DNA of 44,085 nucleotides from Mycobacteriales bacterium. Lineage in GTDB: Bacteria; Actinomycetota; Actinomycetes; Mycobacteriales; QHCD01. Made by a program: the position numbers and the translations under genes. Location: assembly GCA_036497565.1 (NCBI GenBank), contig DASXJE010000230.1, forward strand, positions 1 through 44,085. Reading direction: 5' to 3'. A model generated the notes under the pieces. It saw only the letters and a list, made by a program, of their open reading frames with translations. It ran no database searches and was not told the origin of the DNA. Below, piece by piece: positions 3,395 through 41,936 of this stretch (position 1 is its first letter; each line of letters opens with the position of its first letter).

Positions 3395-3516
3395 GGACGA
3401 ACTCCTCTTTCGTGGAACGGCTCGACCGCCAGTCTAGGGACCGCCGCGCGCCGCCGCTTCCGCGCGCCGCCCGCCCGGCTGTCGCTCGCCCGCCGCGCAC
3501 CCGCCGCGCCCTGGAC

Positions 3517-3590
3517 AAAACCCACTACTAGTGGGTTGTGGGCGGTTCCACCGGCGTGTCGTGGACCAAAACCCACTACTAGTGGGTTTT
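3517..3590. repeat. Paired palindrome block, copy 1 (CCC/GGG arms)
   Basis: A 74-base block with two palindromes whose left arms start 51 bases apart (3517 and 3568). Each reads AAAACCCACT, a three-base centre ACT, then AGTGGGTT; the second has a full TTTT end and extra GGAC/GTCC flanks that lengthen its stem. The linker contains CGGCGTGTCGTGGACC. It lies downstream of glpD and upstream of def on the minus strand. The A-run/stem/T-run layout looks like a bidirectional terminator, but a mobile palindromic element is equally possible. Confidence 0.8.
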
Positions 3591-3628
3591 GTCCAGCCGG
3601 GTCGGCTGGCTCGGCCGCCCGTGCGATC

Positions 3629-3702
3629 AAAACGCACTCCGAGTGCGTTTTGGGGGCCTCACACGGCGTGTCGCGGACCAGAACGCACTAGGAGTGCGTT
3701 TT
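3629..3702. repeat. Paired palindrome block, copy 2 (CGC/GCG arms)
   Basis: Second copy of the 74-base block, about three quarters identical to copy 1 by eye, with the same 51-base spacing between its two palindromes (3629 and 3680). Arms are A(A/G)AACGCACT and AGTGCGTTTT, so each stem carries a paired C-to-G and G-to-C change relative to copy 1, keeping the symmetry. The linker again has CGGCGTGTCGCGGACC. The second palindrome overlaps the end of glpD: the glpD stop TAG (3688-3690) is formed by the arm and centre. Confidence 0.8.
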
Positions 3703-5418
3703 GTTCGGCCGTCCCGCGCGGGCCGCCAGCGCGGTCGCGTCGTCGGGCGCGGACTCCGACCGGCGGTCGGCGTCGACGGCCGCCACCCAGCCGCCCACCT
3801 CGTCGGTCACCCGGGCGTCGTCCCAGCCGAGTACCTCGCCCATCAGCGCGGCGACGACCGGCGCCGCCGCGACCCCGCGGTCGCGCGTCTCGATCGCGAG
3901 GTGGGTACGCCGGGCGAGGACGTCGTCGAGATGACGGGCCCCCTCGTGGCTGGCGGCGTAGACCACCTCGGCACCGAGGTAGCCGGCACCGACCGGCCGG
4001 GCGAGGTCCGGGCGGTCGGCGACGAGGTCGAGCAGGTCACCGATCCGGGAGCCGTAGCGGTCGAGCAGGTGGTCGACCGTCGCGACCGGGAGCCCCGACT
4101 CCGCGGCCAGGCCGTCCCGCTGGTTGCGCACCGCGGGCCAGCCCGCGGCGCCGAGCAGCGGCAGCCTGGCGGTCGGCGACGCGGGGATGTCGCCGCCGAG
4201 CCGGCGCGCGGCCAGGTCGACCGCGTCGGCGGCCATCACGCGGTACGTCGTGTACTTCCCGCCCGTCACCGTGACCATCCCGGGCGCGGTCTCGACGACC
4301 GTGTGGTCCCGCGAGAGTGCCGCGGTCTCCGACGCATCGGCGGAGCCGGCCGGCGACAGCAGCGGCCGCAGCCCGGCGTAGACGCCCACGATGTCGTCGC
4401 GGGTGAGCGGACGCGTGAGCCACCGGTTGGTCTCCGACAACACGTAGTCGACGTCGCCGCCGGTCGCCGCCGGGTCGTCCCGCGCTCCCGACCACGGCGT
4501 GTCGGTGGTGCCGATGATCCAGTGCCGCCACCACGGGCGCACCACCAGCACGCTGTCCGCGGTGCGGGCGATCAGGCCGGTGTGCGAGGCGATCCGGTCG
4601 GCCGGTACGACGAGGTGCACGCCCTTCGCCGGAGCGACCCGCAGCCCCGCCGGTCCGGCCAGCCCCGCGACCCGGTCCGCCCACACGCCGGCGGCGTTGA
4701 CCACCACCCGGGCCCGCACCTCGAAGTCACCGCCACCACCGTCGCGATCCCGCGCGCGGACGCCGACGACCCGGTCGCCGTCGCGGAGTACGCCGGTCAC
4801 CTCGGTGCGGGTCGCGATCCGCGCGCCGAGGCCCGCGGCGGTGCGGGCGACGGTCATGGTGTGCCGGGCGTCGTCGACCCGCACGTCCCAGTACTGCACC
4901 GCGCCGGTCAGGACGTCCGGCCGCAGGGCGGGCATCTCCCGCAGCGCGGCCGCCCGGCTGAGGTGGCGGTGCCGCGGCACGCCCGGCCCACCGCGCAGCC
5001 GGCCACCGAGCGCGTCGTAGAGCGCCACACCGGCGCCGACGTAGGCCCGCTCCCACCCGCGGTGGAGGAGCGGGTAGAGGAACGGCTGCGGCCGCGCCAG
5101 ATGCGGGCAGAGCGTCTCGACCATCAGGTCGCGTTCGTGCAGCGCGGTGCGGACCAGGGAGATGTCGAGGCGCTGCAGGTAGCGCAGCCCGCCGTGGAAC
5201 GTCTTGCCGGAGCGGGACGACGTGCCGATGGCGAGGTCACCGGCTTCGAGTACGCCGACGGACAGACCGCGCGCCGCGGCGTCGAGGGCGACCCCGGCGC
5301 CGGTCACGCCGCCACCGACGACCAGCACGTCGACCTCGCCCCCGGCCAACGCGGCGAGCGTCGCGGCCCGCTGGTCCGGGCCGAGCCGGTCGCTGCGCAC
5401 GGCGTCCCCTCTCGTCAT
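3688..5418 (-). CDS. glpD: FAD-dependent glycerol-3-phosphate dehydrogenase family (GlpD/EryB type)
   Basis: 576 residues. The N-terminal Rossmann FAD motif is VLVVGGGVTGAG (31-42), followed by the GlpD hallmark GTSSRSGKTFHGGLRYL (65-81); the C-terminal half has the alpha-helical domain seen in aerobic GlpD. The family oxidises glycerol 3-phosphate, or in the EryB branch a tetritol phosphate, passing electrons to quinone. It lies 10 bases after a class II aldolase and an FGGY kinase, so a polyol-phosphate substrate other than glycerol 3-phosphate is plausible; sequence alone does not decide. The last residues NKTHS and the stop are encoded inside the palindrome at 3680-3702. A downstream GTG is an alternative start. 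Confidence 0.88.
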   Translation of the reverse strand: MTRGDAVRSDRLGPDQRAATLAALAGGEVDVLVVGGGVTGAGVALDAAARGLSVGVLEAGDLAIGTSSRSGKTFHGGLRYLQRLDISLVRTALHERDLMVETLCPHLARPQPFLYPLLHRGWERAYVGAGVALYDALGGRLRGGPGVPRHRHLSRAAALREMPALRPDVLTGAVQYWDVRVDDARHTMTVARTAAGLGARIATRTEVTGVLRDGDRVVGVRARDRDGGGGDFEVRARVVVNAAGVWADRVAGLAGPAGLRVAPAKGVHLVVPADRIASHTGLIARTADSVLVVRPWWRHWIIGTTDTPWSGARDDPAATGGDVDYVLSETNRWLTRPLTRDDIVGVYAGLRPLLSPAGSADASETAALSRDHTVVETAPGMVTVTGGKYTTYRVMAADAVDLAARRLGGDIPASPTARLPLLGAAGWPAVRNQRDGLAAESGLPVATVDHLLDRYGSRIGDLLDLVADRPDLARPVGAGYLGAEVVYAASHEGARHLDDVLARRTHLAIETRDRGVAAAPVVAALMGEVLGWDDARVTDEVGGWVAAVDADRRSESAPDDATALAARAGRPNKTHS

Positions 5419-13581: not shown

Positions 13582-13604
13582 CAAACGCACTACACGTGCG
13601 TTTG
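13582..13604. repeat. Palindrome overlapping the pyrF stop codon
   Basis: CAAACGCAC, five-base centre TACAC, GTGCGTTTG: a single, slightly diverged member of the family at 3517-3702. The pyrF stop TAG (13590-13592) sits at the same place in the palindrome as the glpD stop does in its copy. Located exactly at the end of the pyr operon, consistent with a terminator role. Confidence 0.75.
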
Positions 13605-25310: not shown

Positions 25311-26396
25311 CTACAGGACGAGTAGGTCCTTGGTCGTCATGGTGAGCAACTCGGGTCCGGATGACCGGACGACGAGCGTGTCTTCGATGCGGACACCGCC
25401 CCGGCCCTCGAGATACACCCCGGGCTCCACGGTCACCGGCATCCGATCTTCCAGTTTACCCGTGCCGGTCGGTCCGAGGCCGGGCGCCTCGTGGATCTCC
25501 AGGCCGACACCGTGGCCGAGGCCGTGCCCGAAATGCTCGCCGTGTCCGGCCGCGGCGATGACCTCCCGGGCCGCCCGGTCGATCTCCCGCACGTCGGCCC
25601 CGATCGCCAGGGCCTCCCGCCCGACCCGCTGCGACTCGGCGACCAGGGCGTAGATCTCGCGCTGCCAGTCCGCGGGCTCGCCGAGCACCAGGGTGCGGGT
25701 CATGTCGCTGTGGTAGCCGTCGTACTCGGCGCCGAAGTCGAGCTTGACGAAGTCCCCGGCCTGCAGCGCCCGGTCGCCCGGCCGGTGGTGGGGAATCGCG
25801 GAGTTGGGGCCGCTGGCGACGATGGTCTCGAACGACGGCGCCTGCGCACCGTGGTCGAGCATCCGGCCGTCCAGGTCGCGCCCCACCGCACGCTCGGTGC
25901 GGCCGATGGCGAGGCCCCCGGCGGCCAGCAGGTCGGCCAGCGCCCGGTCGCCGATCACGCAGGCCTCCCGCAGCAGCGCGATCTCGTCCTCGTCCTTGAT
26001 CCTGCGGAGCTTCTCCACGGCGTATTTCAGGCTCACCAGGTCGACGCCGTCGGCGGCCGACGAGAGCGACCCCAGTCCGTCGACGGTCACCACGTGCGAC
26101 TCGTAACCGAGCCGGCGGGCCCCGTCGCGCGCGGCCCGCGCGGCGAGCGCCGTCCCCACGCTCCGGTCGATCAGCCGCTCGACGTCGGGCGCCTGCTGGG
26201 CGGACTGGGTGGTGTAGCGGCCGTCGGTGGCGAGCACCGCGGCGCCGTCGCGGGTCAGCAGCAGCGCGCCGTTGGATCCGGTGAAGCCGGTGAGGTAGCG
26301 GACGTTGATCAGCGAGCTGATCAGGACGGCGTCGAGGCCGTCCTCGGTGGCGGCGGCGTGCAGGCGCTCACGGCGTACCGCGTGGGAAGCAGGCAT
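25311..26396 (-). CDS. pepQ: Xaa-Pro aminopeptidase/dipeptidase, M24 family
   Basis: 361 residues. N-terminal creatinase-type domain ([19 protein letters not shown]), then the pita-bread catalytic domain with five metal ligands: Asp220 (LDFGAEY), Asp231 (DMTRTL), His295 ([14 protein letters not shown]), Glu324 (VEPGVY), Glu338 (RIEDTL). Releases residues N-terminal to proline. ATG at 26396 is the family start; the longer frame runs through a palindrome and into aroQ. It is placed directly upstream of efp, a common arrangement. The choice between aminopeptidase P and prolidase is not settled. Confidence 0.92.
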
Positions 26397-26415: not shown

Positions 26416-26470
26416 GCCCAAAACGCACTCCTAGTGCGTTTTGGGCGACGCGCGGCTAGTGCGTTGTGGG
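26416..26470. repeat. Palindrome plus half-palindrome between aroQ and pepQ
   Basis: GCCCAAAACGCACT, centre CCT, AGTGCGTTTTGGGC (26416-26446): the longest-stemmed copy of the family. A lone right arm, AGTGCGTTGTGGG, follows at 26458-26470 just before the aroQ stop, and resembles the first palindrome of copy 1 at 3530-3542. The site is at the 3' end of the aro operon. Confidence 0.8.
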
Positions 26471-28477
<2,007 letters not shown>

Positions 28478-41790: not shown

Positions 41791-41855
41791 CTGAGCAGTT
41801 AACAGCGCTATGGCGCCCGAGCCCGTCCGACACAGCCGGTGCCACCCGATCCGCC

Positions 41856-41899
41856 TTGACTTTGTATCGCAAAGCTCGCTAGCTTTGCGATACAAAGTC
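41856..41899. promoter_or_regulatory. Operator-like inverted repeat containing a sigma-A promoter
   Basis: Arms of 19 bases (GACTTTGTATCGCAAAGCT at 41858-41876 and its exact complement at 41881-41899) with a CGCT spacer. Each arm is itself an imperfect dyad, CTTTG-TATCG-CAAAG, centred at 41867 and 41890. TTGACT (41856-41861), 18 bases, TAGCTT (41880-41885) makes a plausible plus-strand promoter lying within it. Likely binding site for the winged-helix regulator at 43143-43457. Confidence 0.7.
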
Positions 41900-41936
41900 G
41901 TGGCCGTGCAGACGGCCTGGCCGGAGGGGGCAAGCG

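Follow-up and report, generated by a model that had tools for sequence, protein, structure and literature searches.

In many bacteria, few short repeats are as common as REP and REPIN elements, and RAYT transposases are credited with spreading them. In Pseudomonas fluorescens SBW25, REPINs are REP doublets that form hairpins (PMC3116915). REPs sit mostly 3' of genes (PMC3733652), and the text on the GTAG and CGTC REP superfamilies does not mention Actinobacteria (Di Nocera et al. 2013, PMC3733652).

The locus lies in the window, the whole 44,085-nucleotide stretch that was analysed, whose high G+C and gene orders metK-priA-def-fmt and aroQ-pepQ-efp point to an actinobacterial host. The block at 3517-3702 contains the four palindromes that the first-pass annotation had described (3517-3539, 3568-3590, 3629-3651 and 3680-3702), with the claimed start-to-start distance of 51 bp inside both units and the claimed common linker core, CGGCGTGTCG(T/C)GGACC, at 3552-3567 and 3664-3679. 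All 10 arm pairs match in palindromes 2 and 3, and a single pair is mismatched in each of palindromes 1 and 4 (TTGT; AGAAC). The 74-base repeat drawn by that annotation is a two-palindrome unit as claimed, but it really extends 5 bp further at both ends (TGGAC...GTCCA in unit 1). A dispersed non-coding element is present here in two neighbouring copies, one per subtype. The fourth palindrome contains the glpD stop codon (ORF 3688-5418, minus strand); the block's position at the edge of a kinase-aldolase-glpD operon, which had been noted, is incidental, as the genes flanking units elsewhere are unrelated. The features in the window are as follows.

3512..3595, plus strand: C-type unit, consisting of TGGAC, palindrome 3517-3539, linker 3540-3567, palindrome 3568-3590 and GTCCA
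3552..3567, plus strand: conserved linker core of unit 1, CGGCGTGTCGTGGACC
3624..3707, plus strand: G-type unit, consisting of CGATC, palindrome 3629-3651, linker 3652-3679, palindrome 3680-3702 and GTTCG
3664..3679, plus strand: conserved linker core of unit 2, CGGCGTGTCGCGGACC
13582..13604, no strand assigned: possible decayed palindrome CAAACGCACTACACGTGCGTTTG, at a gene 3' end
26420..26470, no strand assigned: G-type unit remnant between aroQ (26471-26902) and pepQ (25311-26396), a complete palindrome (26420-26442) followed by a half arm abutting the aroQ stop

The outer ends of the G-type unit at 3624..3707 are more degenerate than the G-type family consensus, TGACC/GGTC. The window also holds a separate intergenic 24-bp inverted repeat at 41853-41904 (GCCTTGACTTTGTATCGCAAAGCT / AGCTTTGCGATACAAAGTCGTGGC), probably an unrelated operator or terminator.

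The genome-wide palindrome search proposed by the first-pass annotation revealed a high-copy family. Specifically, the palindrome AAAACSCACTNNNAGTGSGTTTT occurs 103 times with at most one mismatch in the 4.8-Mb genome (316 contigs), whereas a reversed control pattern occurs 0 times, so the palindrome is not a product of chance; the linker pattern has 51 matches. From the fetched loci, 51 units were assembled at about 42 sites, the second palindrome lying 51 bp after the first, a pitch that was a required condition of the assembly. Counted without this condition, there are 109 palindromes, only about seven of which lie outside 51-bp units; two of these are strongly diverged, and the others stand alone or belong to half units. 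Loci were assigned to about 102 of the 103 palindromes that match with no more than one mismatch, and the inventory, which is based on pattern searches and fetched loci in a draft genome of 97.8% completeness, is therefore nearly complete. The block thus belongs to a genome-wide repeat family of short, high-copy palindromes in which doublets predominate. At one locus (L022:1587-1609), a solo C-type palindrome with both outer ends (TGGAC...GTCCA) adjoins a G-type unit, and has the form expected from deleting the 51 bp between a unit's two palindromes.

All units share one layout of about 84 bp, in which two palindromes are joined by a 28-bp linker with the core GGCGTGTCGYGGACC and bounded by 5-bp inverted outer ends. 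The consensus is TGGAC-AAAACCCACTASTAGTGGGTTTT-GGAC.......TACGGCGTGTCGTGGACC-AAAACCCACTASTAGTGGGTTTT-GTCCA for the C-type (30 units) and TGACC-AAAACGCACTNNNAGTGCGTTTT-GGGG......TACGGCGTGTCGCGGACC-AAAACGCACTNNNAGTGCGTTTT-GGTC for the G-type (21 units). The subtypes differ in their stems, CCC/GGG in C and CGC/GCG in G, and every unit is pure, with no intermediates: all 102 palindromes of the 51 units carry C..G or G..C at the variable stem position, and W variants there are absent within one mismatch. The compensatory arm change noticed earlier is accordingly real, but it represents one fixed difference between two subfamilies, about one event, and because the difference is fixed and the units are pure, it alone cannot prove maintained pairing. 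Stronger evidence for the maintained symmetry that had been read from it comes from near-invariant palindromes beside a freely varying half of the linker. The palindromes are conserved almost to the maximum and the linker core strongly, the linker's first half is poorly conserved, and sequence information drops to background level right beyond the 5-bp ends. The left and right outer ends are complementary, their outermost pair being found as T-A, T-G and C-G. Position 22 of palindrome 1 and position 2 of palindrome 2, both in the inner arms, show uncompensated variation, whereas the outer arms show none.

The unit as a whole is an inverted repeat of a palindrome, with 28-bp arms and 92% of cells paired, and is predicted to fold either into two hairpins of 10-11 bp or into a single long hairpin. 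The predicted energy of the long hairpin is -53 kcal/mol as RNA and -32 kcal/mol as DNA (z about -7), and that of a single palindrome stem is -14.7 kcal/mol. The central bases of a unit's two palindromes do not covary and are unpaired in the long hairpin in 32 of 50 units; they give no sign of selection for this fold, and a model with the long hairpin only was rejected, the two-hairpin form being at least equally supported.

All 42 sites are intergenic according to a codon-usage gene caller, and comprise 12 convergent, 22 tandem and 8 divergent sites. Spacer length predicts 3.6 convergent sites, fewer than the 12 found (p=0.0001), and at 17 of the 22 tandem sites the upstream stop is closer to the unit than is the downstream start (p=0.008, an approximate value because start codons are predicted). 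In total, 34 of the 42 sites border the 3' end of a gene. By inspection, the linker has no evident preferred orientation with respect to the direction of the genes. The flanking genes are diverse, including purE, aconitase, citrate synthase, era/recO, glmS/acpS-like, purC/purS and others. One unit (at L038) seemingly sits between a start region and its gene, and tRNA genes near divergent sites are limited to one, tRNA-Gln.

Near-identical linkers (at most one mismatch) recur at unrelated sites, with six pairs among C-type and five among G-type units versus 0.6 and 0.4 in column shuffles. The comparison of empty and occupied sites that had been suggested found two junctions unoccupied in relatives. 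The aroQ-pepQ stop-to-start distance is 74 nt here, with the unit remnant, versus -7 to 10 nt in five relatives, a same-family genome included; the 94-nt era-recO gap here holds a unit, versus 6-9 nt in two relatives, measured from the era stop to the first aligned recO residue. The comparison genomes at both junctions are distant, and the differences, each close to the size of a unit or remnant, thus represent extra length at the unit rather than a clean recent event. Judged from these sequence comparisons, near-identical linkers at unrelated sites together with the two unoccupied junctions indicate insertion and copying. The purC-purS junction (L015) was dropped as a third unoccupied site, gene order and spacing being too variable in relatives. 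No target-site duplication was found, no offset or length standing out among about 1,570 combinations. Each of the nine two-unit clusters pairs a C unit with a G unit (label shuffling, p=0.0015), for which loss of same-type neighbours by recombination, or like excluding like, are possible causes.

We propose, with a probability of roughly 0.7, that the family is a REPIN-like non-autonomous element of two palindromes at 51-bp pitch, whose inserted copies would depend on a mobiliser in trans and probably act, as a side effect, as two-way 3'-end RNA hairpins. The two-palindrome pair would be the unit of copying, which would probably proceed via single-stranded DNA folded into the long hairpin, with mobilisation by some enzyme acting in trans. 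A unit inserted 3' of a gene could then form RNA hairpins on either strand, by which transcripts may be ended or protected, and this may be why units are tolerated there. The search for a RAYT-like transposase advised by the first-pass annotation was run and returned 0 matches to Y1_Tnp/RAYT (PF01797) in the 97.8% complete genome; as a control, the same search was positive in 5 of 14 genomes, E. coli included. TnpB was likewise not detected in the genome, and none of the palindromes placed in this draft assembly bounds a longer autonomous element. A bolder version, which we advance tentatively and which may well prove wrong, is that an actinobacterial REPIN-like population spreads without an IS200/RAYT-type Y1 transposase via an unrecognised enzyme, with mutually exclusive subtypes whose neighbours are always C and G, as if like excludes like nearby.

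The units could instead belong to the host and serve, in tandem pairs, as bidirectional terminators or as stabilisers of mRNA 3' ends, alike through selection for one efficient design rather than through mobility. The 34 sites at gene 3' ends, the strong enrichment of convergent sites and the apparent lack of orientation bias relative to genes are in line with this explanation, as are the stable stems flanked by AAAA...TTTT, predicted at -14.7 kcal/mol for each palindrome, and the outer arms, which would provide a U-tract for each direction and, unlike the inner arms, hardly vary. Additionally, other AAAA/TTTT hairpins are nearly absent in about 200 kb of the genome. Such an origin nevertheless appears unlikely to us, because termination requires neither the 51-bp pitch nor the conserved linker, eight of the 42 sites lie between divergent genes and the unit at L038 seemingly between a start region and its gene, and clonal linkers, the C/G purity of each unit and the unoccupied junctions point to copying. 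A terminator scan of the region found none; the predicted stem of the unit is stable, and its T-run is only TTTTG, inside the stem.

Copying by a conventional MITE, whose terminal inverted repeats of about 28 bp would be cut by the DDE transposase of a lost or unsampled insertion sequence, would fit the discrete ends, the terminal inverted repeats and the insertion at junctions that are otherwise short. We regard it as improbable, given that target-site duplications are lacking, that each repeat is itself a perfect palindrome, which is unusual in MITE ends, and that no placed palindrome delimits a longer autonomous element. The perfect dyads with a fixed pitch, near-invariant sequence and two subtypes also recall binding sites of a nucleoid-organising or regulatory protein, namely two operators about five helical turns apart that were spread by selection and exist in two operator subtypes. 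This seems very unlikely, since most sites lie 3' of genes and not at promoters, the functions of the flanking genes are unrelated, and both the clonal linker subfamilies and the absence from a same-family genome would be left unexplained.

The first-pass annotation had held that a conserved element family is unlikely if the block contains the only copies in the genome and relatives lack them; copies are in fact many here, and the absence from relatives is borne out. Pattern searches gave no match among 100 relatives, and a covariance model, under stricter filters and with the best candidates per genome scored, found none among 299 genomes of the order. The linker pattern has no other carrier among about 85,000 species (genome_contigs). 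A class-wide search of 395 genomes with two mismatches allowed found two related palindromes, 90 bp apart, in one other genome only. Lone palindrome matches in 22 viral and 31 genome contigs, mostly AT-rich, were set aside as most likely ordinary terminators, because none has a partner 51 bp away and none has the linker. Plasmids and phages gave marginal chance matches only, and Rfam just far-below-threshold chance matches (mir-642, P37).

In a same-family genome (G001), the family is absent from a 311-kb sample, and the palindromes of that genome differ. Those at L131:238-550 and L132:19038-19710 share the core CTTCACTCGCGAGTGAAG and have complementary outer arms, GGATC/GATCC versus GAATC/GATTC; they apparently lie inside repeated coding-like sequence. 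In another genome of the order (G014, L229:3555-3671), a single intergenic 117-bp near-perfect inverted repeat carries a similar palindrome (AAAACCCCACTNNNAGTGGGGTTTT) at both ends and another palindrome in the middle, and may represent a comparable element from a different family of the order.

The open-licence papers that were searched describe no such family in Actinobacteria. A rigid, lineage-specific actinobacterial family with no detectable RAYT makes it possible to test whether enzymes of other kinds can drive such elements, and the strict one-C-one-G cluster rule adds a further measurable property. Taken together, the elements constitute a solid new repeat family, not a new kind of system. 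The likeness to REP/BIME elements drawn by the first-pass annotation holds for organisation (high copy number, extragenic position, rigid inverted pairs, mostly 3' of genes); no RAYT was found. We do not file the family as REP or REPIN, because two features that define that class, a GTAG/CGTC tag and a RAYT, were tested and neither was found; identity with GTAG or CGTC REPs is ruled out on the same grounds. As in bidirectional intrinsic terminators of high-GC actinobacteria, seen by Term-seq in Streptomyces clavuligerus (PMC8269248), stem-loops that are predicted to be stable and usable on both strands lie 3' of genes; unlike those, the units have only four T per palindrome, inside the stem, form a fixed two-hairpin unit with a conserved linker, and are not confined to gene 3' ends. 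The GTAG/CGTC REP superfamilies (PMC3733652) share palindromes of 20-40 bp, dimers 20-100 bp apart with conserved spacers, and a location mostly between convergent or co-directional genes, and the CGTC group likewise has no dedicated transposase, but the ends here are TGGAC/TGACC, with neither the GTAG nor the CGTC tag. Compared with the REPINs of SBW25 (PMC3116915), which consist of RAYT-linked REPs, the present family has no detected RAYT/Y1_Tnp, palindromes that stay perfect up to the tip, a much lower copy number and an actinobacterial host. What the two have in common are short extragenic palindromes paired in inverted arrangement at a fixed distance (51 bp in this family versus 71 or 110 bp there), conserved ends around a less conserved spacer, a predicted long hairpin, singlets as remnants, a few clusters and several sequence groups per genome.
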